Shown: piece after piece, positions 1 through 63,264 of the stretch
How positions within the stretch are numbered: the stretch's first letter is position 1
Layout of the letters: every line of letters begins with the position of its first letter
Origin: Xestospongia bergquistia
Lineage: Eukaryota > Porifera > Demospongiae > Haplosclerida > Petrosiidae
DNA length: 64,000 nucleotides
Direction of reading: 5' to 3'
Assembly (NCBI GenBank): GCA_963965975.1
Contig: OZ014411.1
Location: 12,974,501-13,038,500, forward strand
Program-made: the position numbers and the translations under genes
Notes under the pieces: model-generated
The model's database searches: none
What the model was told of the DNA's origin: nothing
Seen by the model: only the letters and a program-made list of their open reading frames with translations

Positions 1-2957
1 TCATTCAAATCAGTAAAAGGTGGTCTTATGACATGTAAATATCCAGACAATAATCTCTCCAAAGGATTACGAACAATCATAGTTTTGCGATAGTTCTTAA
101 TCTTTCGTCGTCGAGATACATTGCTAAGAGTACTATTGATAAAACTAATTTGTTTCTGTAGGTATTTATCAAAATCGATCAATTCCCAGGTCATTACATC
201 ATGTTGTAAGTCATTGTTGTCAGTAAAAACCAGACTCTTTGTCTTTGTATTGGTATGACAATTCCCTTCAACAAAACAGAAAACGACTCTTCGTTGATCA
301 CTGTATACAAGATGTCGGAATAATTCCTGTCGTTGCTCCTTTTCGGGAGGAAATGTGAATTTTCGACGATGTCTTCTATATTTAGCGCAGAACTCATGTA
401 TTCTCTTTCTCTGAAACTAGACAAAAAACATTGCATCATTATTATAGTACATGTGCATTAATCAATGACCTCATCAATATAAAATATACATCATTGGTGG
501 TTGTCAAAAAAGACCACATGTACATGTACATTAAAAAAACATGTCCCACTATGTAATTAATAGGTAATCAATGATATACCTACACTGTGTACCCACATAT
601 GGAATCTGTTATTCTAAGAAAGGCTACATGTAGTTAAATGTCTAGACAGCAGGAGTGACCATGTCATTAAAATTTGACTTTTACATTGATTCTTATGTGC
701 ATTACTATATGTCAGTTAATTTTAACTTGGCACATTGTTCAAGCCAGACAGTCGTAAGATTGTTTAGGACTATGTGTTAATTACACAGGTATGATTTTCA
801 TAGTCTTATTGTATTGTTGTTGTATGTAACTTTGGAGAGTGACCGCTAAAAATAATGTGCACACCAACAAACCAATTAATGAATATCAATGTTTTTACTG
901 TGAGCACTTTGACTTGGGCATAACTGATTGAAGAGTCAGTAATTTAACAGCTTTAGTATAATCTATGTAGTTAAATGTCTAGACAGCAGGAGTGACCATG
1001 TCATTAAAATTTGACTTTTCACATTGATCGCTATGTGCATAGGTGGTTACTATGATGTCAGTTAATTTTATTCACTACTCACAAAAGTCACATACAACAA
1101 TATAATATTAAACAGCAGACATAGTTAACATGTGGTCTGAAACAATCTTGGCACTGCCTAACATGTATAGCATACCAAGTGTTGTTATATTATGATATTA
1201 TATTTAGAGCTAAGGAAGTTATAGTGTCTAAGGAATAGAGATCCATTGATAATGTCATATCCTCAAACCCAAAACTATCCATCATCAGAGAACACCAAAC
1301 AAGGGCAATAAATAAACTATAAATATTCTTGTCATTGATTGAATTTTGTATCATTATAATATGACTTTTGAGCAATAGACTAAAACTATGAAAAGGAGAT
1401 GCTTTTAAAAATGGTACATAAAATAATTTTACATGTTGTGGTCTTGATAGAAATATAACTAAATATATGTATTATACATCATGTAACAAAAGACAATATA
1501 AATATCAATAATGCTAAATTGTATACAACTGCTAATAATAACATAACTAGTAAATTAAATTTAACAATGAAGTTTTGTTTCTTATAAAGTAACTTTTACA
1601 TTCTATAGCTAAATGTTTACAATTACATGACTCGTACTACATTAGACAGTTTTGATGTAAACACTTCAAATTTCTCATTCCCATCTTTGAAGTGGCTAAG
1701 CAATATAATCAATTCTTAAATGACTGTAATATAAATTCTGTACAAATGTACATGCACACACAAACATATGAACTAGTATTAATTACTAATCTCTGGTATT
1801 CAAATTACTTAATTACAACGCCTACAAGTTATGATATGAACATACTATATACATTACAGTAAAGTAGTATTACTAATATTACAATAAATAGTATTAATTC
1901 TTGCTACTTAAGACAGACAAATGACCACAAACTAATACACAAGTTATTTAAGGTATCTGCTTACATACTTGTAACACAATTTTGTCTACACTTCAATTCC
2001 CTTGAGTTTAAACTATAACAAATAACACATCATTACTAAATTCAAAACCAATATTTATAATGTTGTATAAAGTACAAATAACAGACATTATACCTTCTCT
2101 CTTTCTGCTTGGTTAGTGCTCTGTGATAATTTAGTTATGGGGTCACTTTCATTACTGAGAACGAACAAACCTAATGTTGTAAAATAAGAACTTAACATTA
2201 CCACATACAATGTCATAAGTATCATTTTAATACCATACATCATTAACAGATGTCCAGTTACAATAAATACATTGATGTTGTATGTTTACACTGGTATATT
2301 CTCAAACTGTCCAATGTCAACTCTGTTTAGAGATTTAGAAGTCATGGTATGTTGATTCAGGTGATTAATATTAATTTTGAAAGTTAGAATAGTTTTTTAT
2401 GTTTATATAAACGTAATTGTGGTAGCAATTAATACCACAAGTATAATTAAAGTTAAATTATTTATATTAACATTAATATATATCTTGTTTATTATTTATT
2501 GTGTGTGGTCTAACAGACTATAATACAAATTTGTGATCTCTTTAATAATCACTGTGTATCTATAGAACATACATTAGATTAAAACAAGCAACATCTATAG
2601 TGTGACTCAGTGTAAATATACACACAACAATCAAGATACACAACAATAATTGTAATAGACTAAAAAGCATGCATTTAAAAAGCATTAATTTATTTTCAAG
2701 ATTAATGAAGCCTTAAAAGTATAAAGCAATTACTTAGACAGCATTACTGAGCTCAATAGGCAGCTACCTTTCTCTAAGACAACATCTGATTGCTGTACTG
2801 CATGTCGTACAACAACAAATGTACGAGCATCATGGAGTGATTTCGTCAGATTAACATACCATACAAATGTAGATACAGAAAATAACAAGAAAAAGAAAAA
2901 CACGATTCTTCTTCTGCAGTAAAACAAAATAATACATAAATAATATATACAGTACAT
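1..2957 (-). CDS. Carbohydrate sulfotransferase (HNK-1/CHST8-14 type), partial, 3' end outside window
   Basis: Golgi type II sulfotransferase that would move sulfate from PAPS to a glycan. Proposed exons on the minus strand: 2957-2768 (63 codons, ends phase 1), 2170-2094, and 410 to beyond position 1. Exon 1 has R-R-R followed by a hydrophobic anchor of about 18 residues. Exon 2 begins with GT after an AG acceptor, restores frame and ends phase 0 at AAG/gtataa. The last exon reads R-K-R-I-H-E-F-C, then F-R-H-L-V-Y, F-C-F-V-E-G-N-C-H-T-N, and the 3'-phosphate motif IVRNPLERLLSGY. This order matches the sulfotransferase at 59916-63264. The 5'-phosphosulfate motif, usually P-K-V-G-C-T-N, has become E-G-N-C-H-T-N and lacks the lysine. 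The 3' motif has N where H is usual. A possible acceptor (ctgcag) inside exon 1 means the true start could lie further upstream. The family is secure; activity is doubtful. Confidence 0.72.
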
Positions 2958-3340
2958 GTTAATAATAGAATAAGTACTTGGCTAACCTGGCATTTCTAGA
3001 GAACATTGTAAACGTTGTCACAAGTAGTGCACACTGAAGCTAATACCTAAATGTATACAAACCAATACCGAATATCATAATTATCCGTCCGTATAGGCCT
3101 AATTTTGAATATTTCGCTGTTGCTAACCCCTCCCGTTTTTGCGAGAACTTCTATAGTATTATACGTTGTAGATTTGGCACGCAAATAATTAGTGCTATTG
3201 AATAAATTTATTATACAAACAATGACAAGATCTATATACTTATCCCTAGACCTTAAATCTGGAGAGCAAACTCTTGAGCGTATGATGCACAGTCAGTAGT
3301 TTACATGCTTTAACTTGTCAATGTGCATTTTTTTGATGTC

Positions 3341-3405
<65 letters not shown>

Positions 3406-3440
3406 CTTATGCCTAGGTCCAAACTTAAATCTATATATTT
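2371..3440. repeat. Segmental duplication, left copy (pairs with 11559-12600)
   Basis: About 1 kb holding the anchor exon of the left sulfotransferase and its 5' flank. It is repeated almost base for base between GT92 genes A1 and A2. The sulfotransferase exon is identical in translation between copies; the flanks differ by scattered substitutions and by the length of the TA tract. Confidence 0.85.
3343..3403. repeat. (TA)n microsatellite
   Basis: About 61 bases of uninterrupted TA. The duplicate at 12524-12549 has only about 26 bases, so the tract changed length after the duplication. Confidence 0.95.
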
Positions 3441-4619
3441 ACTAAAAATAAAATGTTATCCTTTTTGTTGTATTATCTTGCTGATGAAGAATTGTTTATT
3501 TTGGCGACTTTACTAAATAAAGTAGAAGATGCGTGGTCCTGGTATTCACTGTATATTAAGAGGTAATAAAAGCTAGTGATTTTTCACTAGGATTGGAGTA
3601 CTCAAATATCTGGATAGCACTAGTAAAAAAGAACTGTTACTAAAAAACGTCTTAAAAATGAAATACACTACACACTTTGATGTCATTATTGTTGTAATTA
3701 TTAAGACAATAGCATTAATCTGTAAAGGGAAGCAACACCTAAAATTATACTGCTAATTGAATGGATGGACTACACGACTGCGATGCACAAGCAAATACGA
3801 GGACGTTAGTACTATGTTCGAGTGTTTTATAAAAGCAAGTCACTGTTAATGCATATGTAGTCAAATTTCTTTTGATGTTTCACTGCTAGGTGAGTTTTCA
3901 ACTGATCAATGCTTCTTGACACTTTATTGATCCACCAATATATAATTATAGTATTAGATATTGAAATGAATGAAAACTAAGCCTTTACATACATTCATTA
4001 TGAATTAATTTCAAATGTTTTTGCAGTCCAGATATATTTCAATACTGTAATCAAGACAGTGTGAGCAAATGAAGACTACTAACACCATTGATAGCTAATA
4101 GACAGCCATAATATTTTTACGAGTAAACACGATCACATTTTAAGGTAATTTATAGCTTTATTAAATGATGTCATTTACAACGAAATTCAATGATGTCAAA
4201 ATGATGTTAATTGTTGGAAATGTTCATGTCTTTAGACACTCGTGCATTCTTGTCTTTTTCTCGTTTCACTTCATTGTTGCATGATTAGACCCATGGATAT
4301 AACATTAATTTGATTACTAAAATTATGGGTGTATTTAGTATTCTTAAATAGTTCATAGCTTCTACAGTTTTCTGACATAAATTGATGATTTTCTTACTGA
4401 AAAAACATAATGTTTATATGTACCACCTATATTAACATACTAATTATAAATATTATAATTACTTAGATTATTTCATCTCCGCGGATAGATCAATCCATGG
4501 CCAGTGTTATCAGCTTGTAAGCTTTTAGTTACAGTACTCACAGCAGTACAACCTACAATAATATAGTAATACAATATTTATATATCAAATGAGATGTTAT
4601 TGATCTCTTTTAACATGTA

Positions 4620-5230
4620 GACTGAAATTAAAATTTATATTGAAAAATCTACTCAAGTAAGTGTCTCCCTACAAGTTTATTACATAATGGATATAGTTGC
4701 ATGGAGTCAGTGAATGAAGATGCAGAAGACTTTAAATCAAATAAGCCAGCAACTCTACTAACCAACCACACTACACTAAGAACTGCTAACATAGAAATTC
4801 AGAACATAACAATTCAGAGACATCTGATAACTCCTACTATTTTACCAACATGCTCTTGTGACAAAATGCTAGTAGCACATAATGTCAACAAAAATATCCT
4901 TTATCAGCAAACTTCCTGAACTAGAACTATTAGGTGAACACTATAAAGACCTCATGTCATATATACAGCTAATAAGCACCTTCAAGCAACAATCACAGTC
5001 ATAAAAGCTATCACACAATATCCATCTACAAAGTCTTTACTAGTTAAAAGGAAAGTGTCATCAAATGAAAACTGTGAGACCAATGAATGTTTCTTTCAAC
5101 TAAGCAGAAAAGAACAACAACTACAGCAACTATGTCAAAAACAACTCAATCACAAATTAATACAGTAAAGAAAACACTTGCAAAAAGGATGCAAAAGTTT
5201 GTGGAGGCTGCTGCTTTAAAGAATTATGGA
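4620..5230 (+). pseudogene. Decayed coding-like block, repeated before A1, A2 and A3
   Basis: Broken open frames, including a 72-codon frame from 4701 and a lysine/glutamine-rich stretch after 5030. The block recurs at about 13330-14030 and, truncated, at 18935-19150, with different indels in each copy. That argues against a functional protein. It may be an old transposon or a lost upstream exon. I cannot name the family. Confidence 0.35.
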
Positions 5231-5550
5231 TGTACCTTACATGTACTATTCCAAAAATAAATGCAATAGCTGTAACTACATTTGTCAATTCCCTAATGTT
5301 GTGGATGACACTAAATAGTACAGTTGTCTGCTTGTGTCAAAATATTTTTGTTGTGTTCATCCCTTCTATAAAAAATGAAAATCCTTACCTAAACACTCTT
5401 CTTCATTATCTTTTGTTCCTTTTATCTGACTTTATAACAGTTTCTTTTGTTCTTCCAGACAAGCATAAGACAATCAATTCACTAAGTGCTCACGCGAGAG
5501 AATGCAATAAAAATCTTGAAAAGAAGGGGTTAAAAATTTGGATAACTGGC

Positions 5551-5596
5551 GTAGCCAGCCCCTCCTTCTATTGGGATAAAGGGAGGGGCTGGCTAC
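5551..5596. repeat. Perfect 15-bp inverted repeat (MITE-like hairpin) before A1
   Basis: Arms GTAGCCAGCCCCTCC (5551-5565) and GGAGGGGCTGGCTAC (5582-5596) with a 16-base loop, ending 28 bases before the A1 start codon. A similar element precedes A3. A2 lacks it. It probably lies in the 5' UTR or core promoter. Confidence 0.85.
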
Positions 5597-5624
5597 TCGA
5601 AACTATTCTAGTACTGTTTTTATA

Positions 5625-8600
5625 ATGAAAACTAGAAAGGTCAGATGTCTTTTCTTTTCAGCGTTTGTAGTTACATTTGGCTTGATTGTCCGGCTTTACT
5701 TAAGATATGATAAAGCAATGTTGTATACAGTGACTTTGCCCAAAGGTCTTGCTGATGTCCATAATCATCAGTTATCTCCAGACCATCCTGCCCCAAGACA
5801 AAATTTTTGGGTAGACTTGCAACCTAATGAAAACATGTTGGTAAGAAAATATGTAGTCCAGTATGTCCAATATATACAATTAATAATGAATTTATCAGTC
5901 TATTATTAGATGCCACCTTAATCAGATAGCATGACTCAAAGTGGTCCAAACATCAAGATGTATATATAATGAAGTGAAATCATAACTTAGAAAGTGAGGT
6001 TACATTATTGCACTATTCTGAACAAGTGCAAATATAATTAGCATACAATGTAGGCGTGTCACAGTCACTGCCCACTTGATTTATGATAATAGAGGCTTGA
6101 TCAGTAAACAGAGTTTAATTTTGGGAAGCACTTAATTAATAATAAAAGATGGATTTAAATAATAATATGCTCTTTTACGTCAGCTCTGTCAGAAATGCCA
6201 TGTACCAATGTTCATTTAAAATCAGTGTGTAGATAACCAAGAGATCTTAATGGTTCAACCCATTGAATGACCGTGCACCATATAAATAATACAATTTTAG
6301 GCTCTGAAAAATAATATTTTACACCAATAGTAATGGAGTGAATTAGTGATGTCATTATAAGCTGTCGAATATATCATCCATGTTATATCTCTTCATGTAT
6401 AACAACAATATCATGATCACATCAGAATGCCAAGATACACGATATTTGATTAGCCTTTATTTAGTTAAACTCTGATATATAGTACCATGCCTGGCCTCAG
6501 AACACAAAAACCAAGTCCTAAATTATCTAAGTTTAGACTACCATTAATTAACTATAATGCAATAATAGCTATTAGTGAAAGCTATCTATGGTGACCTAGA
6601 CTGGATTCTGATATTATATACATGATGTTATGAATGTTTCATGTATTTAGTGCATGTTTTTAGTACTTATAGTCTAAGGGACCAATTTGTCTTAGATATG
6701 GACCCAGTTTAATTCACTTCTAGACATATTCATGTTTTTTAAAGAGTAAATTAATGGTATATAACATTGTCATACTGCTCAACATGTACAGCTAATGACA
6801 GTCTCGTATCTATAATGGAGAGAGATGAGTCAAGTCAATGCAAATTATCCAAATTTCTCCTAAATTACCAATCAACACTTTATGCTGATAAAGAAATAAT
6901 ATTTTATTTATTTCTTTATAGAATCCTGGAACATATTATGTTCTAGGATTCTATTTCTCAGTCAAAGCCTGAAACTAGGGTTCAGTACTGAGTAGCATCA
7001 CAAAAACTAATAGCTGATTTTTGCACTTGAGCTAATAGTTATTTATTTGGGGATACTATAACACATTATTTAAGACATTATTTTTGTATTTGGATTCTGT
7101 ACTAAATGTAGATCTATATAAATTTGAAACCAAAGATTCCTTTCATAAGGAACAGTTACAATCTTTAATTTGTTATACCAAGTATTAGCACTCTATTAAT
7201 GTGCACATTATGTGATGATTAATTGCCCTTATAAATAATTAAAGAAATATTTTAGTTCTATTTGTGTGCATACAAAATTAGGCACTTTTTAAAATAATCA
7301 AAGATGTACTAGATCTTCTAAAATCAGACTGTGAGAAGTACTTGTTGGAGAAATAGAAGCAAGTTCATGATGATTATAATCATTAATTAATTGATGCTAA
7401 TAATTCAAATGATATTGGCATCATTATCAACTTGTCAATTTTCAACATAGTCTATTTGAAACTAGGTCCAGTATCATGTTATAGTTTTATGCGACGACTC
7501 ATTTAGAAAGTGCCATGTTCATCAGATTGGCCAAATTCCTAATTTAAGTAAGATGACCGGTACCACTAAAGGAATGATGTACCTTAAGCCTACTATTAAT
7601 TACATCTTCTAGATACAATATATTAATGTATATCAATATCTTCAGAGTCATGTCTATTTAATTTATCAATTTTTGTGATTACCATATTGTTAGTTAATTT
7701 CACTAAAATTAGTACATGGAATTAATAGTAGGCCTAAGTTAGCATATCAAATTTAAAACATATAGAGATATGACATCAATTAGTCCAACTAATGTCAATA
7801 CTACTACTAATAACATGTTATGATAACTTACTATAACTCATAAGTGTTGTTTGTACACTACCTCCAGTTGATACTAATCTTATTAGGAGATAAATTTGGA
7901 TTTAATTATTTCTATATATTTTAATGTAATATTTTTGATGATCATGCACTCACATCAACTTTGTATCTCTAACTAGTTTTTGTGTTTGATGAAGTATAAT
8001 TTGATTGATTGAAACAAACTTCAAGTTTAGCACTGAGTGAGCTATTGTAGTTAGAGATACATGTGATTTCTGATATGATCATTTGATTTTGTTCTTCTCT
8101 ATACTAGATAAGAAGGCTAGCATACTATGATGATCGATTTCAAAGTCCCACAATTGTACTGATAGCTATGCACAATGATACTGTTCAACAACTAAAATAT
8201 TATGCTCAGATTATATACAAGACAAGAAAATTATGTGTTCCTTTAAAATATTGGCAAAAGAGTGGAAGACTTAAAACAGATCGTTTTGTTCCAGAAATAT
8301 ATGTAAACTATTTATTAAGAACTGATGGAAAACTTCCAAATGAACCACCTCTCTATCTAAGAGTGACTTCAAGTAGATGGTGTGTTAATGAAGGAGAATT
8401 GTCTGATCCCATAATGGTAAAGTATGGAAAAAATGATAAACTTGTCCCATTTGGTGTATGCTTACACAAAGCATTGTTTTCTATCACTAATCCTCAGTTG
8501 TTGGTAGATTGGATTGAAATACACAAACAGTTAGGAGCTGAGATAATTACAGTCTATTTAGAAGATGTACCTGAAGTTATTACAAAGGCTGTTCAACCTT

Positions 8601-9193
8601 ATATTAAGGAGGGTCTGTTAGAGTTAATAGATTGGAACATGAAAAAAAGAACTCGAGATTTTGGACAGTCTGGTGTCATGAATGATTGTTTATATCGTAA
8701 CCTTTACCGCGTAAAATATCTTGGAATGTATGATTTAGATGAGGTGATAGTTCCTCAAAAGCATTATTCATGGCATGAAATGATAGAATTTTTAAAAAGT
8801 CATCACAATTTGGATAAGTATGCTTCATTACGTTTTAATGGTTGTTCATTTCATGTTAGTACTCGTGATAAAGTCATAGGTAACAATGTGTCACTTTGTC
8901 AAAATATGAGTTTACCAATCTACTTCAGATGGACAATGAGAGAGAAAGTTGCTGGTGATCATCCAAAATTAATGATAACACCTGCTCGTACAATATCAGT
9001 ACAAATTCATCGTGTTGAACATCAGACTACACGACGTTTGCACAAGCATTTCTCTGTACCAACAGAATTCGGTCTATGTCATCATTATGCTAAGTTTCGC
9101 AAACCACTAAGTATCTTTTATAGCAATATAATGACTCGTTATGAAAGACCAGTTTTGGAAGGAACAAAGAAACGTATGTGTCATGATTTGTAG
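5625..9193 (+). CDS. GT92 (DUF23) glycosyltransferase A1
   Basis: Family 92 glycosyltransferase, a Golgi type II membrane enzyme. Characterised members such as C. elegans GALT-1 add galactose. Exon 1 is 5625-5840 (72 codons, ends ATG-TTG before gtaagaaa). Exon 2 is 8108-9193 (361 codons plus stop, after an AG acceptor, phase 0). Total 433 residues, a normal size for the family. Residues about 6-26 form the membrane anchor, followed by a short stem with S-P-D-H-P-A-P-R. The catalytic domain begins near F-G-V-C-L-H (about 187). The DxD-type motif D-L-D-E-V-I-V-P lies at 281-288 and C-H-H-Y at 396-399. The first ATG of exon 1 is chosen because R/K-rich residues precede the anchor, as in all A copies. 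The 2267-bp intron contains only an inverted repeat near 6919. An AATAAA lies at about 9363. Confidence 0.9.
6919..6953. repeat. Quasi-palindrome in A1 intron
   Basis: 16-base arms TAGAATCCTGGAACAT and ATGTTCTAGGATTCTA (one mismatch) around ATT. The matching places in A2 (near 15700) and A3 (near 20780) have a single short sequence, so A1 gained an inverted duplication here, together with an adjacent AT-rich fold. Confidence 0.85.
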
Positions 9194-9939
9194 AAAAAAA
9201 AGTTGATAATAATTATCTCAAATAGTAATTTTTTAAACATATATTATATAGACAACTATGATTGAAGTATGTCTTGTTACATTTTGTTTCTAAAGCTATT
9301 TACTACATACAATGCATAGTATTGTTACTGTATGCATGCATGTGAGGTACAATTGTTAGTATAATAAAATATGTCATATACACTTTATTCAATGGAATAC
9401 TCAATTGATGGTTTTTTGTAATCAGAAATTGTCTATATATAGTATAATAATATTAATATAACAATATTAATATAATAATATAATTTATAATCCCACAATT
9501 GTCTAATAAAAAGTGTCAATTGAACATAGGGTGTTAGTTTTAAATACTGTACATTTAGTATTAATTTAACATAGTACAAAAGAAATGTTTGTATTTAAAA
9601 TGCTATAAAAGTAGGTTTTACTGGCAATGGGATCATGTTGATTTACAGAACAGAGAATTAATTAAAACAATCAAAACACAGAAAGTTGGAGTAGCTCTAT
9701 CTGCATACATGGCTAGGAACAATGTTCATTCTAAACAGAAACATCAACACTAGCAAAAAGGTCTTGTCTTAAGTGAACTAGGAAGATAGTTACAAAAATT
9801 GTAAAATCATGATCTTTTTACTTGATAAATAAATAATATGTATAAACAATTTTATCATGCTTTTTAGTCCAAGTGTCAGGATACAAAGTGCAAACAATTT
9901 ATACAACATTGCTGTAAGAACAAAACTCAATCATGTCTT

Positions 9940-10335
9940 CATAATGTTGACACAATATTAGATATAATGGATTTAGAATGAATGATTTCTCTAGGTTTAT
10001 GTATGCTGATTCATCATCTATAACTACATTATCATGTCAACCAGACCATAAATATGAAGGGTTTTCAGATAATGATATGTTATCCTCACTATCCACATCA
10101 TTAGGTGTGTTGATGCTCTCAGAATTATATCTACTGGATTGCATATGAAGGGTTCATATTTATTGATGTTATCGTACCATTTCTACTATATGGGTTAATC
10201 TGCCAATGAACCATCCTCATTTTCTACAGGTATATTAATGACAATCCCATTGTGTTTATTGGATATGGAGTATACAAATGAAGGATTTTGATTTGTTGAG
10301 GTTGTTGTAGATGTTTCACTATTTTTGATAACCTC
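9940..10335 (-). pseudogene. Broken tail-like coding remnant with NPxY/NPxF motifs
   Basis: Reading the minus strand gives N-P-S-F, N-P-S-Y (twice) and N-P-L-Y within acidic, Ser/Asn-rich sequence, interrupted by stops (for example after L-W-S-G) and frame changes. It resembles the cytoplasmic tail of a receptor that binds PTB adaptors. Copies lie at about 18700-18930 (cut short) and 23740-24140. The parent gene is not in the window. The receptor identity is only an inference from the motifs. Confidence 0.35.
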
Positions 10336-10508
10336 ATCATAATACATTGTTTATAATGTCAATATAATAATCAATAGCTAGTAACTGAAATCAACACTTT
10401 GGTTGGTGCTGTGTTGGGTGTAGTTAATTCATGTACTACTAATATACACTACCATATATACAAAGTTATACTCATGTATACTCAAAGTTGAAATAATATA
10501 TTATACTT

Positions 10509-10775
10509 TTAACAGTGTACATAACACACACATTTATACATACATTTTATTGGGTGCATACTTGACAAGGGACTATCTACCACTCCATACTCGGATATAT
10601 AATCTCTATTTTCATCTCTACGAAGAACATTAATTTTAAAGCTGTTTACTTCTTCCAAACCACTATTATTTTCCAATCTTCCTTGACTAGATGCCATGTT
10701 TTCTTGTGCAGAGACGTGAGTTGAAACTTTTCTAAAAGAATTTATTAATCTAATTATGAGACCACTTCTTTGCAC
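10509..10775 (-). pseudogene. Possible minus-strand exon remnant, duplicated at 24318
   Basis: Open minus-strand frame with an AG acceptor candidate near 10740. It encodes a polar stretch containing L-E-N-N-S-G-L-E-E-V-N and then D-Y-I-S-E-Y-G. The copy at 24318-24506 keeps the frame with a few substitutions. It lies 5' of the NPxY remnant on the same strand, so both may come from one receptor-tail gene. No domain is recognised. Confidence 0.35.
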
Positions 10776-11558
10776 ACATGCCTCTTAAGGCTATTGCAAA
10801 GTCCTGATGCTTTAATTTCAAACAAATCCTATTTTTTGAATACAGTTGTTTTAAAATGACATTATCACAAACAGTGCATGAAGTTCAATAAATTGGTTGG
10901 TAATATGATATGCTTTGATGAAAAAGTCATCTTGTGCCTAATGATTCTGGATTTATAAGTAAAATCAAATTCATTTAGTATATCAGAGTTGGAAATGAAG
11001 AGTGATAGAATTTTTTTAGAAATCTGCTACCCCAGCTGCTCTGACCTTCAACACTTCAATTTAATAATATTCATATTTCACACTACTTTTAATTGCATAC
11101 CAACACTATCTGGACTCAAATATAGGAAGAAAAACGACGTTTTAAAAATGAAATAGACTACATACTTTAATGTCATTATTGTTGTGGTTATTAAAACAAT
11201 AGAATTAAGTTGTAAAGAGAAGCAACTTATAAAATCATATTGCTGGTTGAATGGATAGACTACGCGACTGTAATTCACAAGCAAATACGAGGGCGTTAGC
11301 CTTGGTATATATGTTCGAGTGCTTTATAAGGCAAGTAGTCCCTTGTAGAGTACAGAGCTAAACAAGTTCGTTCATTAGATGACTACTATAGACAACAATT
11401 ACCGCGTATGCATAATACAATACATCCGGTCAATCTACATAATACTAGCAAAATTAGTATTTTTATTTTTATTTACTTATTTATTAATGTCATACACAGA
11501 AGACTGCCCAGCCACCAATGGCTTACGAGTGACAAATTAATTACAGAACAAGATATAT

Positions 11559-12600
11559 ATTAATTTTTGAAAGTTGAAATAGCTTTTTATGTTTATATAA
11601 ACATAGTTATGGTAGCAATCAATAACACAAGTACAATTAAAATTAAATTATTTATATTAACATTAATATATGTCTTGTTTATTATTTATTGTGTGCGGTC
11701 TAACAGACTATAATACAAATTTGTGATCTCTTTAATAATCACTGTGTATCTATAGAACATACATTAGATTAAAACAAGCAACATCTATAGTGTGACTCAG
11801 TGTAAATATACACACAACAATCAAGATACACAACAATAATTGTAATAGACTAAAAAGCATGCATTAAAAAAGCATTAATTTATTTTCAAGATTAGTGAAG
11901 CCTTAAAAGTATAAAGCAATTACTTAGACAGCATTACTGAGCTCAATAGGCAGCTACCTTTCTCTAAGACAACATCTGATTGCTGTACTGCATGTCGTAC
12001 AACAACAAATGTACGAGCATCATGGAGTGATTTCGTCAGATTAACATACCATACAAATGTAGATACAGAAAATAACAAGAAAAAGAAAAACACGATTCTT
12101 CTTCTGCAGTAAAACAAAATAATACATAAATAATATATACAGTACATGTTAATAATAGAATAAGTACTTGGCTAACCTGGCATTTCTAGAGAACATTGTA
12201 AACGTTGTCACAAGTAGTGTACATTGAAGCTAATCCCTAAACATTATACAAACCAATACCGAATATCATAATTATCCGTCCGTATAGGCCTAATTTTGAA
12301 TATTTCGCTGTTACTAACCCCTCCCGTTTTTGCGAGAACTTCTACGTTGTAGATTTGGTACGCGAATAATTAGTGCTATTGAATAAATTTATTATACAAA
12401 CAATGACAAGATCTATCTACTTATCCCTAGACCTTAAATCTGGAGAGCAAACTCTTGAGCGTATGATGTACAGTCAGTAGTTTACATGCTTTAACTTGTC
12501 AATGTGCATTTTTTTGATGTCGGTATATATATATATATATATATATATTACTTATGCCTAGGTCTAAACTTAAATCTATATATTTACTAAAAATAAAATG
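11559..12600. repeat. Segmental duplication, right copy (pairs with 2371-3440)
   Basis: Near-identical copy of the left sulfotransferase anchor exon and flank, inserted upstream of A2. At its right end the sequence jumps to the equivalent of 3872, so about 430 bases present before A1 are missing here. Confidence 0.85.
11958..12147 (-). pseudogene. Orphan sulfotransferase anchor exon (copy of 2768-2957)
   Basis: All 63 codons and the G/gtagct donor are identical to exon 1 of the left sulfotransferase. No catalytic exon follows on this strand before the neighbouring GT92 gene, so it cannot make a sulfotransferase locally. It is either a very young dead fragment or an alternative first exon for a minus-strand transcript. 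The absence of any coding change suggests recent duplication or conversion. Confidence 0.75.
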
Positions 12601-49305: not shown

Positions 49306-49596
49306 ATAGTTGAAAATACCTGACTTCTGGCCAGTTCTAGATCTGCCAATCTAAACTCTTAGAGTCTTGATCCAGCTTGAGGTACATTGCGATATAGGGT
49401 CTGTAATCCCTCCTAGCAAAGCTAACTTCTCCTTATAACGAGATTTAACAGACTCTTCTAAGCTGTAAAAGTAGCTTGACAACGATATTTGCTTAGCCAA
49501 ACTCAAAACCATACACATACACAAGTTGAATTGACACTCAATAATCAATATGGCTACGTAGAAACGGTTGGTAATTTTGCGGTGACTCTATTTTAA

Positions 49597-51390: not shown

Positions 51391-53071
51391 GTTGAATGTC
51401 TATATAATTCTTATACACACAAACAATTTGATAATTTAGATTGTACTCTTTCATTTACAGATGATGAAATAACAATATTTTCTAGACATCTGGAGGAAAG
51501 TTTCTGATCTGAGATATTAACAATGGTAATTAACTTGTTCAACAACAGTCACAAGTACAACCTTATAACCACGATATCAAAAATTTTAAGCGAAACTTAA
51601 CCAATAATTTAAAAAAGGATTAAACCCCAGGTTAGTTTATTTTAAAATTTCCAATGTCAATACATGATAATAGTTAGTCTATTTTTGGCAAATAAAACAT
51701 TAGCTTGTCTGTCTTAAAACTGGTGAAGTAAAATGGAGACATGCTGACAGACTGCTTGTTATGCTTTTTATATAATAGTTGAAAATTAATTATGATTTAT
51801 TAATTTTTTGTTTCTGTGTAGGTCTGACTAGACCAAAAATCATGTCCTTAAGACATTAGGTTAGTTGTGAATGTAATTAAGATATAATTCACATAAATTG
51901 TTCTGATGTAACTGATACTCACTTCTCAAGAGGTGATATTGATGAGAACCTGGGAAAACAGCTATATGCTGTTTACATAATTAATTGTGCTATTCCAATT
52001 TAAACACAAAAAATTGATTGGGCTTGGCATCAATAGCTTAAGACGCTTCCACAAACCACATGCTGTCTTAATCTCTTAGGTATATTTTATTTAATCATGT
52101 AATAATGTAATTGACCTGTGTAAGGATACAAAGGTATGGTACTGAGAGTATTTCCACATTGATTTCATGCATACATGTAAATACTGCAGTGTGATATAGA
52201 TATTCCTCCCTTCCAGCAGGGGGGAGGGGAAGGCTACATGAGATTAATTTCCAGCCAAACTTTATTGGAGTGAGCCTGGGGAAGCTGCAATTTATTTTAT
52301 AACTGGTTAAGTCTGTAGACCAATTCATACCTTAATTAGTGGATATAAAAAACTAGCAAATGAGTAGCTGTGTGACAAGTGACGAGAATTTGTTACTTAA
52401 TAAAACGTGGAGAGTACCACAAGCCATCTCTTAGAATCAAGTGTCAGCAAGATGTTTCCAGTTTGGTTGGGTTCCTGATTTTGGTTGTTTATTGTAATGT
52501 CTGCCCTCGGCTTCAGTACCAACTTGGTCGTTAAATGGAATTCTCAAATTACATGAAGATTCATGGAAGCTTAAGAAAAAAGAACTTTTAAGCATCAATA
52601 TCTATTTTTTACAACAACAATACAGCAAATGGCAAAGAATGAAAGCTCATGTGATAAGTGATAAAAGGGTAAAAGTCATTTTGATTTAATATTTGAAATA
52701 ACAATGCTTACTGGGGGAGTTTATAATTGAGTGACCATTCTTCCCTCATAGAGGGCAAGATCAATTGAGGCTTTACTGTTTTCTGGGTTAGCTGGACGTC
52801 CAGTGGCAGATCATGATCCACGGAGGCACATAATAGCTGAACAGACCTAGGAAAAACTCAGGTGACACCTTAGCAAGTCTGTGGTTTGACTGTGTGGCTT
52901 GTCATGCTTGAGAGCAATCATAGCTAAGCTGCCAGTCTCTTGTACATAACGTTTGCTCGGCTTCCGTACTACCCACTACCATGTGAGCTGCGTAATGCAT
53001 TCCATTCGTTGTCTGGCTGTAGAGTCTCCGTTTATCACGTGACATTGTCACTTGTAATATTTCCTCAAGTG

Positions 53072-56000
53072 ATGCTCATACTGAAAAGACTTTATTTGTT
53101 AGCACTTACTTTCGTCGCAATGATTGTGACAATGTATCTGTTATTCCCTGTTATGAACTCATACGAAAAACATTTATCCTATACCAATCTTATAAAAGTA
53201 AGTTAAGTTAGTATCATACCTAGACCTCCACAGTGAGTAGGTATCGGTACGAGACTGAAGTTATACACAATTATATATGGGACACTACTCTAGCTTTTAT
53301 GATTCATTGAGTGATAAGAAGCACATTATATATTACCTCACTAATTAATATGGAAAAATATTTTACAAATATTAGAAATCAAGACATCCTGACAAAAATG
53401 TGAAAAACCAAGAGAATCAGGATGTCTTAAATATAAAATGTATGTAAATTGTTAAAAGTTTTCATCAAGAAATGATTCTATAACTATTTTTTTGATTTAT
53501 CAACATTTTGTCTTGTGTGGATGTGGACTGTAAATGCCTGACATCCTTTCCTAGGACATCTCTATGAAAAGCTTCCTTTACAAGATACTAATCTACTTCC
53601 ACTGCCTTATTTTAGGCACTGCATTGATGAAGCAACCAATGTTTGTGTTGCATCTTATACATGTAGTTTCTTCATCTTAACTTTGAGAACATCTCTGTAA
53701 AGAATGAAAAATGTAGATCTTATACTAGTTATTCTGGAAGATATTACAGAACTGACTTCTATACATTACACTATTTATATTGTGACGTTTAAATACTTGA
53801 AAGGACCATTATTACTCTATAAAGGCAATTTCTTCTGTTTTTATCCAAGTCATGTGCATAATTAATAAGTAGTACCTAAACTGCAACATACCTGTGACTT
53901 TAACTTTGACAAAATTATTTGTCTGTGTAAGACCTTTACATAGACTATTGCTCAGTAAGGAAATTCTTTTCCAGAGGTACTAAAGCACATGCTATAAGTT
54001 TAATGGTAAAAGACTCTATGAACTTAACTTAATACCATTAACAACTATACAACTCTATAATAATAACTCAATGCATAATTTGACCACCAATATGTCAATG
54101 CTAATCACTTGCTAAGTATGAGATGGCTTCCATAGTTGAAGCTCTTATCTCTTATTGACACTACTGCTTGACATCCTTTCATAGGACATCTCCTATGAAG
54201 TACTAATCTACATCCACTGCCACGTTTTAGACACTGAATTGATAAGGTAAGCAAACTCTTGCATTGCATCCAATACATGTTGTTTCTTCATCTTTGAGAA
54301 TATTTCTGTGAAGAGTGAGAAATGGATATCTGATACTACCCATTCTGGAAAATATCACTGAACTGAGCTCTTTACATTATGCTATTTATACTATGATATT
54401 TCAATACCTGAAAGGACCATTATTACTCCAAAAAAAGCAATTTCTTTGATTCTGTCTCGTTAATGTGTTAACATCGTTTTGACAATACTACACCTCCTGA
54501 TCACATATGTTTCAGTAGTCACGTGCATAATTAATAATTAGTGTTCAACATACCCTTGACTTGACTTTGACGAAATTATTTGTCTGTGTAAGACATTTAC
54601 AGACACCATTGCTAAGTAGGAAAACTCAAGAGGTACTAAAACACATGCTATAAGTTTAATGGTAGAAGACACTATGACCTTAATGCCATTAACTACACAA
54701 CTCTATAATAATACTTCAATGCATAATTTGATTGCCTGATATTGTTGCTGCCACAATATTTCAGTTTAATGACAACCCAATTTTCCATCTCTTTAGTGAG
54801 GTCTGTCAATTTTGTCACTTGTCATATAATTATATAATTAATAATTATTAAATAATCCAGAACTTCTGAAAAAAATGTGAAAAGCCCAGTAGAATTCGCA
54901 CATGTTAAAAGGCAAAAAATATGCAAATCACTAATTTTTCATCAAGAAATCATTTTTTAACTGCTCTAGTCCTTTAATATCAGCCATTTTGTCACATGTG
55001 AAGTGCGGCCTGTTAATAATATTCTCTTCCTTTGAAATTTTGATTTCTGGCTTGAAGCTAAATTAACAATGTAGCCTGTTTTACTATAAGAGATGTTTTT
55101 AATACCTTTGTCCTATCCCAGCATTGAAGTCTTTTTTGAATGAGTCTTTGTGTACCAAGAAATCTTTTGTATGATATTATAGTTCCAAACTTTGCACAAA
55201 CTTATAGTCAATGATAGTTTAATAGTTTGTTCGTTGAAGCAAATTATTTACTGCACATATAATGTTTTGCAATATTGTATCTGTTTTAATTGCTAAAAAA
55301 GTTATGAACATGGTATAGATTTATCTGATTATTAAAATTTTATTTTGTGAGAGAATGGACATTGTAGATTATATAATGTTTTGCTGTAATGAGTGTCGAA
55401 GATCTTTATGGCCTTCGTTTTAATTTTAGGAATTAAAACAATAATGAATACTAACTATAACCTTTTGAGCTACACAGAACTTAGTGATCCAATACATGCA
55501 ATTAGTAAACTTCAGAATAGCTCATACAAAACAGTTATATTAATTTTTTTTTACAGGATTCTCCTCTTCATCACCCTGCCTATCTAGATGATTTATGGAT
55601 CGTGGTTAATAAACATTTATTGGTAAGACTATAATAGCTTTCAGAAAAATTTATTATTATTTTAAAATCATATTAGATTAGACGAATGGGCTACTTTGAC
55701 ACAAGGGTCAGCTCACACTTATCTGTCGTATTTATTAGTATGCATGATGACAGACAAGCAAAAAAGCCTAATCTTTATGCACAGATCATATACAAAGACA
55801 AGTTATCAGTATGTGTTGAACTAGAGTATTGGACTCAGAGTGGCCACTTAGATGAGCGTTACTTTAAAGAGTTATGGGTAGCATATGTATTAAGAAATAA
55901 ACATGCCATCTTATCAATTGAAGCTCCAGTGATGGCAAAGATATCAACTAATGAATCATGTAATACATCTATGCCTATAATACCTATACAAGATAACACA

Positions 56001-56807
56001 AGAGATAAAAATCTAACATATGGTGTGTGTCTTCATCAACCTCTTTATAATATGAAGGATCCACAGCCGTTAGTTGACTGGGTTGAGCTAAACTTAGCTT
56101 TAGGTGCAGAGATTATTACTGTTTATCTACAGAATGTTTCAGAGTCATTTTACACAACAATGTTGCCATATATTGAGAAAGGTGCAGTTGAAGTTATTGA
56201 CTGGAAATTAAAGCCACCTTTAATAGATGGATATACTAAATGCTGGGGTCAGGTTGGAATAATAAATGAATGTATATATCGTAATATATACAGAGTGAAG
56301 TACCTGGCACTAATAGACATAGATGAATTTATTGTTCCTCAACAGACACTTACAGTAACAAAAATGTTGCATGAATTAGAAATTATAAAGCCAAAAGCAT
56401 CATCATTCACATTTTTAAATACATTATTCTTTAAAGATGGAGTCAGTCTTCCTGAAGTCAACTTATCAGTAAAATGTCAAAATATGAGTTGGCCTAGATA
56501 TTTCACATTTACTCTACAATGTGCTAATCCAGAAATTGAAGCAAAAACTGCAATTTGGCATAAAATAGTTGTTAAACCTAAGGCAGTTATAGGTGCTTGG
56601 GTTCATAATCCAACAAAAGTTCTACCAGGTTATGATCAAACATATCATGCTCCTGTGAATGTAGGTTTAACATATCATTATCGTGCACCTAATTCTAAAA
56701 GAGTCAAAAATTGTGTGAGCAAAAAGAAACCACAAAAGAAACGTGTTTTTACTATTAGTCGCTATTTTAATCAAACATTGATGGGAATATTGAAAATATT
56801 TTGTTAA
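53072..56807 (+). CDS. GT92 (DUF23) glycosyltransferase B3
   Basis: Third type B family 92 enzyme. Exon 1 is 53072-53197 (42 codons, anchor M-L-I-L-K-R-L-Y-L-L...), exon 2 is 55557-55622 (22 codons) and exon 3 is 55677-56807. All joints are phase 0 and the total is 440 residues. Intron 1 (2359 bp) and intron 2 (54 bp) closely match B2. D-I-D-E-F-I-V-P, Y-G-V-C-L-H and Y-H-Y-R are intact, as is the basic C-terminal stretch S-K-K-K-P-Q-K-K-R. Near-identity with B2 in introns as well as exons indicates a very recent duplication. Confidence 0.88.
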
Positions 56808-57770
56808 TCCTTTTCATTTCATTATGATAATAATCATGATAATTATAACATTTTCTTTATTTTTTGATAAGGAAGATTGTGTATATAAACATATAATACA
56901 GTATCTGATAGTTAATAATAATTAAACCAACCTCCTTTATCCTGAGGACGAAGTAGGAGGTATAGTTAAATGTACATGTGTGGTCAAATGGGTAAGTTTT
57001 GTTGCATAATTTAATTTGTGTATAGATTATACACTGAGGTCGAGGTAAATAAGTGATTTATACACTGATGCCAGAAGCGGCACTTTTTATTAATTATGCA
57101 CGTGATTACCAAGTGTTACTATCAGAAATATACCATAATTACTGAAGCACCATAATCAACGAGGTATATAGTGCCTGGAATGTAGTAGTGAAGATTTACA
57201 GAAAGCAATTGAGGATGTATCAGATGGCAGGCTATAAACTAGAGTAGCATCAATTTATCCAGAATAATGACAATACAACTCTAAAAGTCATAAAAATATC
57301 CAGACCAGGTCCTCCCCAGTATTAACTGAGCATTAAGTGGTAAAGTGGACTATACAAATCAAATGGCTGAAATAGGGTATTAGTACTGTAGAAAGCAATT
57401 TTACTGTGCCCCAGGTCTGGGAAGGAAGTTGTCAATGTCTTGTCGAGCCAAAAATGTTTACTATGCTACTACTAGTAGCAAAACACAAATATTGAGATTA
57501 TAGTTTGTAATAGTGCAGCAGGCAGTGTGCGAAAAATTAAAATATTGTACTGTCTGGAAACTACCTCCACTGTCCGTTAGCTGACGACAGTCATTTAGAA
57601 TCTGCCATTAAAAATAAACAAAGAAGTTAAAGTGAGTATTGTATCGATTATGTAAAGCAGGAATAGAAGAGACATCAAGTTTTGCGAAGGTCTAACCGCC
57701 TCTCAACTATCCGGATACCGCCCAGGATACTCTAGATTAACCGCAAATCACCGCCCATATCCTGAATATC
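56808..57770. other. B3-A5 spacer
   Basis: Holds the B3 3' flank and a short Tigger scrap (57190-57520). From about 57520 the sequence is unique and probably contains the A5 promoter, including several ACCGC words between 57690 and 57755. The SWIM and hAT parts of the B unit do not recur here, so this is the right edge of the B repeat. Confidence 0.65.
57190..57520 (+). pseudogene. pogo/Tigger-type transposase remnant 3 (short)
   Basis: Keeps the D-L-Q-K-A-I-E-D-V helix-turn-helix segment and a short piece around C-P-R-S-G, with the rest deleted. Same orientation as the other two copies. Confidence 0.55.
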
Positions 57771-59669
57771 ATGAGGAAGCTTAAATATATTTCTGTTGGT
57801 GTAGGCATTCTATTTGCCTTATCTTTGTTGACTGTCATGTTGAAAAATAATGAAAACTTGGTGAGTCTGCCTAAACATCATCATTTACCTAGCCAAGCAA
57901 GAATGAGCAGAAATGATCATTGGGTTGATTCACTGCCACCCACTGAAAATATGTTGGTAAGATATAATAAATAACATATGTTTGAATAAACTGTTAGTGG
58001 TAGGTAATACCAGCTGTTTCTAGTTTGATACAATACCAAAACTTCAGTTGTATTGATGGTATTGAGTGGTACTGAGGAGCCTGAGTCTATGGCCAACATG
58101 GACTGAAATATAAAAGTACATTTTCATTGTTGAAATCAGAAACATATATCTGAAATTGATGCAGATGTTCACGCAAGACATTTAACCTATAGTATATGAA
58201 AAAAGAAACAATTATTATTTAACATGAAGCATGGTAAAAATTTGCTCCATCTTTTTTGCCACATGAAGTATAACTATAGCCATGTATCATTATACAATTT
58301 CAGCAATCTCTATAATTTGTAATGTTTCAATCAATGTCAGGTACAACATTGTCTTCTATGATGATAAATTTTGATTTAGAATTATAAAAAATTTGTAGTT
58401 AGCTAAATGTGATTTGAAAGGTTGTACACCAAAATTTCTTAATCCCAGTTCCAATTTATTCTTCAGTATATATGTCTACTGTATTTTATAGCAATTGCTT
58501 AATTAATTAAGTACCAGAAATATGTCTTCATATATTTTAATTCATATCATGGCTAACAATATTTGATCTTTCTATTTTTTGGGTAGATAAGAAGGATAGC
58601 ATACTACGATGATCGTCTTGGAGATTCAGCAATTATACTGATAGCTATGCACAATGAAACAGTACAAAAGCTAGACTATTATGCTCAGGTTGTATACGAA
58701 ACAAACAAAATATGTATTCCTTTAGAATATTGGCAAAAGAGTGGAAGACTTAACTTGGAACATATTGTTCCAGAAATATATGTGAACTATTTATTAAGAA
58801 CTAATGGAAAACTTCCAAGTGAACCACCTCTCTATCTAAGAGTGACTTCAAGTAGATTGTGCACTAATGAAGGAGAAATGTCTGATCCTATATTCGTAAA
58901 GTATGGAAAAAAGGATAAACTTGTCCCATTTGGTGTATGCTTACACAAAGCATTATTTTCTATCACTAATCCTCAGTTGTTGGTAGATTGGATAGAAATA
59001 CACAAACAGTTAGGAGCTAAGATAATTACAGTCTATTTAGAAGATGTACCTGAAGTTATTACAAAGGCTGTTCAACATTATATTAAGGAGGGTCTGTTAG
59101 AGTTACTACACTGGAACTTGAAAAAAAAAACTCGAGGTTTTGGACAATCTGGTGTCATGAATGATTGCTTATATCGTAATCTTTATCGAGTAAAATATCT
59201 TGGAATGTATGATTTAGATGAGGTGATAGTTCCTCAAAAGCATTATTCATGGCATGAAATGATAGAGTACCTGAATAGTCGTTACAATTTGAATGAGTAT
59301 GCTTCACTAATTTTTAAAGGTTGTTCATTTCATGTTAGTACTGGTGATAAAGTTATAGGTAATAATATGCCACTTTGTCAAAATGCAAGTTTACCAATCT
59401 ACTTCAGATGGACAATGAGAGATGAAGTTGCTGGTGATCATGCAAAATTAATAATAGCACCTGCTCGTACAATATCAGTACAAGTTCATAATATTGAACG
59501 TCAAACTATACGACAATTGCAGAAGCATTTCTTTGTACCGACAGAATTTGGTTTATGTCATCATTATTCAAAATTTCGCAGGCCACAAAATGCGTTTTAT
59601 AGCAACGTAATGGCTCGTTATAAAGAACAAGTTTTGGAAGGAATAAAGAAGATCATGTGTCTTCTATAG
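57771..59669 (+). CDS. GT92 (DUF23) glycosyltransferase A5
   Basis: Last type A family 92 glycosyltransferase, separated from A1-A4 by the B genes. Exon 1 is 57771-57956 (62 codons, beginning M-R-K-L-K-Y-I-S, with anchor and a distinct histidine-rich stem). Exon 2 is 58587-59669 (360 codons plus stop). Total 422 residues. The intron is only 630 bp against about 2.1-2.3 kb in A1-A4. The stem still ends T-E-N-M-L before the donor, and exon 2 begins I-R-R-I-A-Y-Y-D-D, so the splice model is well supported. D-L-D-E-V-I-V-P is intact. The middle of the catalytic exon is almost identical in DNA to A1-A4 although exon 1 is very different. Confidence 0.9.
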
Positions 59670-59915: not shown

Positions 59916-62900
59916 TTAAGGGGTAATTTCAAGGAGTTTATAAGTCCAAGCTTTTTCAGATGGATATAAAGAATGATAGAAGTCAAATTCTATAGAAAAT
60001 TTGAAATACAAGGACTGTTTTAACTGCTTAGAAACCTGTGAATAATAATCAGTCATTATATCTGATGTTGTCTTTCCTGGTGGATGATAAGAAGTCTGTA
60101 AAAGCTCCAGACTTGGAGAAAACTGTTCAAGAATCTGTGCGGCATCCTTAGAGAAATTCTTGAAATTCCCATAGAAATGATAATCCATACGACATGGTTC
60201 ACAATTGTAATATTGTGGCATAAAGTGTTCATTAATAGTAGTAATGTTTTCATTTGTTATCCATTTAAGAAATGTTGTAAAGGATATGTATGATTCTGAT
60301 CTATTACTCTGTTTCCATACTTCAAACTCATTGTGACAGTATTTTTTAAAGATTTCTTGTTTAAGTCGTTCAAAATAATTGACAGGATGAATCACTTTTA
60401 AAACAGGTCCCTTTATTTTATCAATATATGCAGACAGAAGACGTTCTAATGGATGTCGAACAATTGTATATCTGTTGAATCTGAGAATACGAAATAACTT
60501 CTCATCTTCAGACAGTTCTTCATTAAGAAATGTAACCTTCTTCAAAGCCAGTTCCATCCTTCTCTCCATTATGCTTTTCTTCTTTTGTAGCCTAATAACA
60601 TATTTAGATAAAACATCCTTTCCAATGAGTAAAGTAGCTCTCATATTTGTACATCCAACCTATACAGTAAATAAGTAACAAACTATAATACTATGATATC
60701 AATATGTATGTATGTAAAGTCATGTTATCACAAATGATGTGCCAAGCTAAATGTAAATATTTTGTACACTATTTTCTATGCTTGCTCTAGTAGTGACTCA
60801 TATATATAATGGTACATATTAACTAAATGCTAAATATTTTTTTTCAGATATATTAGGACACTTTGACATGTTATTATTAAATACGAACAACTCTACAATA
60901 AACCAAGACTATAATTGAAAAAATCTAAAGTGTAAGAATAATAATCCTCTGCTCAACCTACATATACATTTACTAATTAATATTAAAGACTAAGAAATCA
61001 TTGGAGTTTGGTACTACTAAAATGAAGTTTTGACCATGCATTGACACATACTAGTCTTATAGTAAATTCGCTAGTTATATTGGCATTCAGTGAACATGAA
61101 TTAATAGCATTCATGGTCATCAATCTTCATATACAACAATTATGAACATAAATGTACAGTGTATGTTATACTAGTTACAAAAGGACTGCCAGGCATAATT
61201 TAATTGCAGACAAAGTGAAATCTTATATTTCATAACATTAGTTTTACCTTGGGCATAAAACAGAACAAATTCATACTGTCATCATCATATATGATGTGAC
61301 GGAAAACTTCATTTCGATAATATCCTTCTGGTGGTAGTGTATGATTTAAGTCTGACAAACCATGTCTATGACAAAAAGCAGCTACTTGAGACCTTTGCCA
61401 CTAAAAATTTAACAGCACGATAAAGAAGAGACAATATTTAATGTATACATGATCCTAAACATGACCCTTCTAGCTCCTCCCATAAATCCGCTTCTGGGAT
61501 ATGATTCAAAAAATAGCTAACATTGGAATCCATTAAGTCCGATTAGCCTACCTACAAATTTAAACTGATTATCCGTTTAATTTAGTAGACATAATTAACA
61601 AGTTAACAGGTAGTACATGTTTGATGGTTCAGTTCTTTGTATCATAAAATGTATGACACAGATTTTACTAGTCAATCTGACCTTGCCTCTTGTATTCATA
61701 TCAGGGTCTTCAGATGGATCCATGGAATGTTCTTTCTTAATGTTTACTTCATTGTCATTATTACCAGCCATTACTAATAGCTTTGGTGAAACAGATTCTA
61801 TGAAATAATAAAGCATTGTTCTTGTATAAAGGTAATTGTAAATACAATTAAGACAGAGAAATAATCAAAAATAATGTCATAAATTTTAGTACTTCTTTCT
61901 GCCACTTGAAAGTTTTCTGTCTGGAATGCATTTTGTGCCAGGTGGTTCAAAGATTGCTTTGGACCACGAATGTTAATATTGTACACATACGTGTGTATGT
62001 GTACAATATTAACATTTAATTCTATTGTTATATACAATTTCTGATAGCTATGAATGAACTTAATCACCTTATATAATTGCCAATACTTATCACAATCAAT
62101 AAAATACCATGAACACATGGATATCGGACAAGACTGATCAAAGCTAACACATCTTCTAAACTAAGGTCTCCAAACTTTTATTAACTTTAAAGTCTAAAAG
62201 GTCTAGTCTTCTAGAACTATAATCATCAATACAACAATTATAATGTTGATGTTATAGTTTTCTCATAAAGGCATTTATCATAAATTTCATTATATACTTC
62301 TAGTACATTATTCTGATGACAGCAATAAGTAAGTCAGTTGACCATGCCATTTTGACTGTCCTATTCAGATATTGTTTTTAGTTGCTCCTTGAGGTTCTTT
62401 TGAAAGTAACTTTACAGGTGACATTTGATTTTTGGGTACCAAAAATCAAATAAAGTGACTATTTAATCCACTATGCTTTAATATAATCAGTTTAATCTAC
62501 ATGCTTTACTAAGTTGTTATAAGGTATACACAATATTTGTTCAATGAAAAGAGACTGTCTAGTTTGTGAAGCAAACTGATATGTTATTTGAAACTATTCA
62601 GCAACAATGCTAAGAAAGTTTTAACGAAAACAATAAGAAATTGTATATACAGGACAACACTATTTCAATGCTTACCATAGTACATGTGTCATATCCATTG
62701 CTTATTATAATTTTACTATCTACAGTCAATTACATTTTGAAATCAAGTAATCTGATTGGCTATACCAATATCTAACAATTTATATGTACATGTATGTAGG
62801 TATTGCATTTTCACTAAATCCATCTTCCTTTTAGCAAGGGTCTAGTTCATAAGACACATGTTTGATCAACATGTTAGTGATATATTGCACAAGAAAGTCA

Positions 62901-63264
62901 ATAGCACATAATGCTACTGAAATAACAAGGAAGCAAACACTAATAATAATATGAACATAAATCTCAACACAGTGGACATGAGAAAGTACCAACAAGGAAA
63001 GCACTCAGTGCCATATAAATACTTATATATATTGTGGCAATGGGATAATTTGGTTGGAACATAAGTTAGTTCACAGATACCACACACACTAGTATTCATA
63101 AACAACTGACTTTTAGTGGTGATAGTCACATCATCCTCGTGTCTTAGAGAGTGGTTATCTGTACCAGAATCATCTTTGATTATCATTAAAAGTAAGATAC
63201 ATACTACAAAGAACCCAATCACAATGAACAGGACCTTCTTTTTCGTTCTTCTTATCAACATCAT
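59916..63264 (-). CDS. Carbohydrate sulfotransferase (HNK-1/CHST8-14 type)
   Basis: Golgi PAPS-dependent sulfotransferase (Sulfotransfer_2). Rebuilt minus-strand exons: 63264-63081 (61 codons plus one base, G/gtatct donor), 61797-61682, 61400-61248, and 60659-59916. Phases 1, 0 and 0 agree at every joint, giving 398 residues, normal for the family. The type II anchor spans about residues 11-29 after R-R-T-K-K-K. The 5'-phosphosulfate motif P-K-V-G-C-T-N is at 150-156, split by the last intron. The 3'-phosphate motif V-R-H-P-L-E-R-L-L-S-A-Y is at 218-229. D-Y-H-F-Y-G-N-F lies towards the C-terminus. The two leading ATGs are adjacent; I take the first. It converges on A5. The sugar acceptor cannot be told from sequence. 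Confidence 0.85.
61972..62013. repeat. Perfect 19-bp inverted repeat in sulfotransferase intron 1
   Basis: Arms GTTAATATTGTACACATAC and its exact complement around GTGT. A strong DNA or RNA hairpin of unknown role. Confidence 0.95.
62423..62451. repeat. 13-bp inverted repeat in sulfotransferase intron 1
   Basis: Arms ATTTGATTTTTGG and CCAAAAATCAAAT separated by GTA. Confidence 0.9.

Follow-up and report, generated by a model that had tools for sequence, protein, structure and literature searches.

The members of glycosyltransferase family GT92 with known activity transfer galactose, and those treated in the relevant passages of PMC10151413 are GALT-1 of Caenorhabditis elegans and three galactan synthases of Arabidopsis. 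In the same passages, GALT-1 is a manganese-dependent galactosyltransferase and C. elegans is credited with at least 60 further GT92 genes. The locus described here was found in the sponge Xestospongia bergquistia (assembly GCA_963965975.1; 146 Mb in 21 contigs), in a stretch of 64,000 nucleotides that was analysed as a whole and is called the window (C1:12974501-13038500, where C1 is the contig carrying it, OZ014411.1). The window includes ten genes, eight of family GT92 and, at each end, one of the sulfotransferase family Sulfotransfer_2 (PF03567). The GT92 genes share with those of other animals (PF01697; C. elegans GALT-1 and SRF-2) the same domain and membership in a large family. Unlike the situation in C. 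elegans, at least 34 near full-length places were found, many of them in tandem on one chromosome, and they are known here from the genes alone. Both flanking genes resemble the carbohydrate sulfotransferases of PF03567 (chondroitin, HNK-1) in matching nearly the whole profile and in keeping the 3′-PAPS motif (PAPS, 3′-phosphoadenosine 5′-phosphosulfate), but the Pro-Lys of the 5′-PAPS motif is missing from the left one. Tandem growth of one enzyme family also characterizes the single-family glycogene clusters of animals (UGT, FUT); here, however, a second, unrelated enzyme family stands at both ends.

We consider it likely that the locus is a tandem GT92 array grown between two older, diverged sulfotransferase paralogues. 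The GT92 genes would have multiplied by unequal crossing-over and gene conversion inside an inherited neighbourhood that was already flanked by sulfotransferases, and the adjacency would thus be most simply inherited. The two enzyme families need not have a substrate in common, and we infer that a pathway link between them is absent. The splice-consensus models, the hydrophobic N-termini, the division into two clades, the tandem units and the relative divergence were computed directly. The left and right sulfotransferases are 32% identical, while the GT92 copies A2 to A5 of clade A are 79-94% identical to A1, which suggests that the sulfotransferases are probably much older than the A copies. 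A row of eight GT92 genes is far beyond chance, though GT92 genes are clustered throughout the genome.

All eight GT92 genes read on the plus strand, as an earlier note on this DNA had stated. Each of them scored above the curated Glyco_transf_92 cut-off in a Pfam search of the genome, and a direct Pfam scan of four of the eight returned PF01697 with E values of 8e-26 to 5e-33. Their main exons start at 8108, 16863, 21958, 30414, 36507, 46393, 55677 and 58587 (stop-to-stop frames), and the gene models, built from splice consensus, all have GT-AG introns in phase 0 and a frame that is open to one terminal stop. The five A genes consist of an anchor exon and a catalytic exon and encode 422-439 amino acids: A1 (5625-9193; exons 5625-5840 and 8108-9193, 433 amino acids), A2 (14427-17948; exons 14427-14642 and 16863-17948, 433), A3 (19515-23043; exons 19515-19739 and 21958-23043, 436), A4 (28124-31508; exons 28124-28348 and 30414-31508, 439) and A5 (57771-59669; exons 57771-57956 and 58587-59669, 422). 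The three B genes have an anchor exon, a 66-base exon and a catalytic exon and encode 440 amino acids each: B1 (34498-37637; exons 34498-34623, 36383-36448 and 36507-37637), B2 (43784-47523; exons 43784-43909, 46273-46338 and 46393-47523) and B3 (53072-56807; exons 53072-53197, 55557-55622 and 55677-56807). The B anchor exons were chosen from a hydropathy list, on the basis of their presence in all three copies and of their splice sites rather than of transcripts.

A hydrophobic N-terminal stretch preceded by basic residues was present in every spliced GT92 model, the pattern of a type II membrane anchor as judged by simple hydrophobicity counts rather than by a topology program. The DxDE motif is kept throughout, as DLDE in the A genes and DIDE in the B genes, with D209, D211 and E212 invariant; in GT92 a DxD-type motif is the metal-binding motif. 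Since the known family members transfer galactose, galactose transfer in the Golgi is, by family, the best guess for both A and B, and the window genes most likely encode Golgi type II galactosyltransferases acting on secreted or surface glycans. A profile of the eight main exons had a single match in the PDB at E values up to 1, the galactan synthase 8d3t over positions 156-324, and this match was not significant (E 0.096); 8d3t is presumably of plant origin and a GT92 member. A PDB search with the single B2 sequence gave no match at E values up to 0.1, a search of NCBIfam with three window proteins gave none, and no relatives were confirmed in prokaryote and viral contigs.

The window GT92 genes fall into clade A (five genes, support 100/100) and clade B (three genes, 100/100), and one tandem burst giving rise to all eight was therefore rejected. 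The genome contains at least 37 GT92 matches, of which 34 are close to full length, and 28 of these 34 are on C1; counts from the genome search are lower bounds for large families. The tree included 33 of the 37 matches, leaving aside three fragments and C1:22737567, which is split between two sequence pieces, and it was rooted at the midpoint with some long rows. Within it, clade A was found at the window locus only. Clade B has as its sister group six genes of the same chromosome, which lie about 9.5 and 11.4 Mb from the window (at C1:3.4 and 24.4 Mb); the nine together have support 100/99. A second GT92 array, at C1:22709992-22749184, has six copies, one of them with an internal stop.

Self-comparison of the window delineated three GT92-A tandem units within 2363-25356, with boundaries placed at about 2363-11551, 11552-18933 and 18934-25356, and two abutting GT92-B units of 9.3 kb within 38395-56995 (38395-47710 and 47711-56995). 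The A1-A3 units differ at 3.3-4.5% of their aligned bases and the B2 and B3 units at 1.9%. Exchange between copies is suggested by a discordance between A1 and A4: in alignment columns 81-160 they show no synonymous difference in 52 sites, as compared to 6.5 differences between A1 and A2 and 4.0 between A1 and A3, which are the close sisters of A1, and elsewhere A1 and A4 differ at 44 of 170 synonymous sites, so that a gene conversion tract between A1 and A4 is indicated. The ratio of nonsynonymous to synonymous substitution rates (dN/dS) ranged from 0.34 to 0.61 across the ten A pairs. Against each of the other A genes, A4 has a divergent C-terminal patch in columns 281-320, where the proportion of nonsynonymous differences (pN, 0.32-0.38) is about that of synonymous ones (pS, 0.32-0.36); in columns 201-240 the same comparisons gave pN of 0.03-0.07 and pS of 0.13-0.37.

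One Sulfotransfer_2 gene on the minus strand was found at each end of the array, where the earlier note had placed two minus-strand sulfotransferases. The same note described the two as reading inward, which must be corrected: with both on the minus strand, the left gene is directed away from the GT92 array and only the right one reads into it. They score 80.4 bits (left) and 82.3 bits (right) against PF03567, whose cut-off is 22. The right gene (59916-63264) has an anchor exon with its ATG at 63264, a second exon at about 61400-61245 ending in FCFMPK and a third at 60659-59916 starting with VGCTNM. Several junctions would preserve the reading frame, which leaves the donor site of its anchor exon uncertain. 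Its 5′-PAPS motif is interrupted by an intron (FCFMPK/VGCTNM), and the single stop within its profile match is the TAG at the acceptor of this intron. With this motif and the 3′-PAPS motif IVRHPLERLLSAY both present, its donor-binding motif is that of its relatives, and the right gene probably encodes an active carbohydrate sulfotransferase. It is convergent with A5, and the two stop codons are 246 bases apart.

The left gene is incomplete in the window, where positions 1-416 hold the 5′ part of its catalytic exon; the frame, open for 295 residues, extends leftward beyond the window edge by 469 bases, to C1:12974032. Its 3′-PAPS region, IVRNPLERLLSGY, is kept. The lysine of the 5′-PAPS motif is important in the Sulfotransfer_2 family, and the corresponding region of the left gene reads FCFVEGNCHTN, as compared to FCFMPKVGCTN in the right one, with neither the Pro-Lys nor the lysine. 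Of the six Sulfotransfer_2 genes aligned with it, four retain the motif (VPKTGCT, VKKAGCT twice and MPKVGCT, where the left gene has VEGNCHT). The remaining two, at C1:26991466 and C5:620301, have also lost it; altered donor motifs thus recur in this genome. Inactivity of the left enzyme cannot be assumed because C. elegans CHST-1, as described in a passage of PMC5050403, has no lysine at this position and yet transfers sulfate. Judging from its motifs, the left enzyme may have weakened activity, may be altered, or may function normally. No PDB match was obtained with the left sulfotransferase or with the sulfotransferase profile.

Upstream of the left catalytic exon and inside the first A unit lies a candidate anchor or stem exon for this gene (2769-2912, minus strand; acceptor CTGCAG, donor AAAG/GTAGCT) that encodes a hydrophobic segment. 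An identical orphan copy is found in the second A unit (11959-12102, minus strand). A run of 324 identical bases, 2706-3029 in one unit and 11896-12219 in the other, spans both exon copies, within a stretch that has 31 mismatches in 1058 aligned bases; it may reflect either recent conversion or constraint. If the exon is rightly assigned, a breakpoint of the A duplication would lie inside the left sulfotransferase gene, as mechanical duplication would give. The possibility that the bracket is a by-product of duplicating a whole unit of GT92 and sulfotransferase genes was rejected: divergence between the sulfotransferases greatly exceeds that of the GT92 copies, and in 144 kb tblastn with both of them detected no additional catalytic sulfotransferase exon, and none beside the orphan exon copy. 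Seven of the ten Sulfotransfer_2 matches in the genome were aligned and treed, with two on C14 and one on C10 omitted. Among these seven, left and right are each other's best match, and they group on long branches with 85/92 support and in 82% of 200 bootstrap trees.

The recent copying in the array is open to other readings. A tentative and less likely alternative is that, independently of the sulfotransferases, changes in copy number, conversion and local diversification make the array a rapidly evolving origin of surface glycans that differ between individuals. The young A1-A3 and B2/B3 units, the A1-A4 conversion tract, the A4 patch and the six-copy array at C1:22.7 Mb with its stop-broken copy are consistent with this idea. 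However, a single genome is uninformative on variation between individuals, and overall dN/dS is below 1 in all ten A pairs. In addition, pN is near or above pS in other stretches as well (for instance columns 41-80, in several A pairs), so that relaxed constraint reads as well as diversifying selection. The structure predicted for A1 from the eight window main exons had too low a confidence (pLDDT 37.1) for the A4 patch to be located on it. It is highly improbable that the array is partly an assembly artefact in which two haplotypes were laid end to end, above all at B2 and B3. These two units abut exactly, and their 1.9% difference is comparable to the heterozygosity of some marine invertebrates, but the 144 kb of sequence are free of gaps (no N), and divergence is higher for the A units and for B1. 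Moreover, the 3′ flanking sequences of B1 and B3 are 75% identical over some 600-650 bases, but the flank of B2 agrees with them no further than base 187-191, where its unit ends; this is the pattern that a crossover, and not the joining of two whole haplotypes, would be expected to leave.

The earlier note had further proposed that the locus builds and sulfates one galactosylated glycan. The enzyme classes, anchored GT92 and Sulfotransfer_2, do fit this proposal; the pathway unit has adjacency as its sole link, and a joint GT92/sulfotransferase pathway is possible. A true glycan gene cluster, in which GT92-A and GT92-B galactosylate, the flanking enzymes sulfate and shared regulation keeps the linkage, is unlikely in our estimation, although the classes are complementary and the convergent arrangement of A5 and the right sulfotransferase, with so short a distance between them, agrees with it. 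Its more elaborate form appears very unlikely: the cluster would combine different steps of glycan synthesis, with a GT92 subfamily specific to this locus having diversified between two dedicated sulfotransferases, of which one has its donor site remodelled, and the products would be variable sulfated galactosyl glycans of the cell surface. Several findings nonetheless weigh against the growth of an array between older neighbours. Two of the ten Sulfotransfer_2 matches stand at the array ends, and if they are independent the probability of at least two within 10 kb of GT92 is 0.0004. The confinement of clade A to this locus means that it could have evolved with these sulfotransferases. The sisterhood of the latter is only moderately supported, as 76 of 500 label shuffles do equally well (seven rows). 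The B pairs have dN/dS of 0.80-1.31 with very few changes, so that purifying selection on B is not supported, and on C9 two Sulfotransfer_1 matches lie at distances of 56 and 112 kb from a GT92 pair.

The strength of the adjacency depends on how it is counted. Placement was taken as uniform across the genome, ignoring gene density, and the P values are post hoc, with no correction for the large number of enzyme families whose presence would have looked equally striking. With seven loci placed randomly, P is 0.024 for one or more lying within 10 kb of GT92; collapsing the pair and keeping it on C1 gave P 0.025, and treating it as one long locus P 0.029 (both 10 kb). Because the two sulfotransferases are probably sisters, these larger values (about 0.03) are the fair ones. 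Within 60 kb the Sulfotransfer_2 value is 0.09, and with all searched sulfotransferase families it is 0.08 within 10 kb and 0.04 within 60 kb (the genome searches also gave 21 Sulfotransfer_1 matches, seven of Sulfotransfer_3 and one of Gal-3-O-sulfotransferase, the latter below cut-off). The eight other Sulfotransfer_2 matches are on GT92-free contigs or at least 352 kb from GT92. A Sulfotransfer_2 match within 60 kb was found for one of 17 GT92 groups, that of the window, and the linkage does not recur within the genome; one of these groups consists of a fragment only, and the flanks of the other groups were read by eye for part of those on C1. The altered donor motif of the left gene and the origin of the B genes in a clade dispersed elsewhere on C1 also argue against a cluster. 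We thus retain the reading of a GT92 array between older sulfotransferases. As for a link to sponge recognition glycans, a passage of a paper on glyconectin glycans (PMC8271808) leaves it to later studies to isolate the glycosyltransferases and sulfotransferases of these glycans. In our searches, none of the 59 Calx-beta matches listed was on C1; they were on C3, C4, C5, C6, C8, C12, C13 and C15. Calx-beta is a mark of aggregation-factor genes, and physical linkage of Calx-beta genes to the locus is unsupported.

A hAT transposase remnant (dimerisation region, plus strand, 40668-41168; Pfam Dimer_Tnp_hAT, E 6.6e-9) lies inside a B unit. Other probable transposon remnants, repeated frames judged by eye, occur in the B region at about 33500-34000, 38000-39000 and 49600-50400 and around the hAT remnant (about 40300-41170). 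To the right of the window, at about 74000-102500 in window coordinates, open frames resemble, by eye, transposases and gypsy-type retroelements. An open frame of 91 residues on the minus strand is kept in two A units (10509-10784 and 24318-24593); its 10509-10784 copy matched no Pfam family at E 0.01. Of ten frames from the flanks and units that were compared with Pfam, one gave weak methyltransferase matches, below the cut-offs, and Rfam and tRNA searches gave no match. Elsewhere in the genome, dense cathepsin-like exon matches at C9:1502757-1523415 are probably a tandem cysteine-protease family, and the four places read among 76 cysteine-protease matches all have the ordinary CGSCWAF active site.

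If the GT92 enzymes and the sulfotransferases truly act jointly, the locus would be a rare case of an animal glycan pathway with clustered steps, and it would offer genetic access to the makers of sulfated recognition glycans. Otherwise, its use would lie chiefly in annotation and in warning against the inference of a pathway from adjacency, and it would stand as a clear example of a GT92 array that expanded between older neighbours through tandem duplication and conversion.

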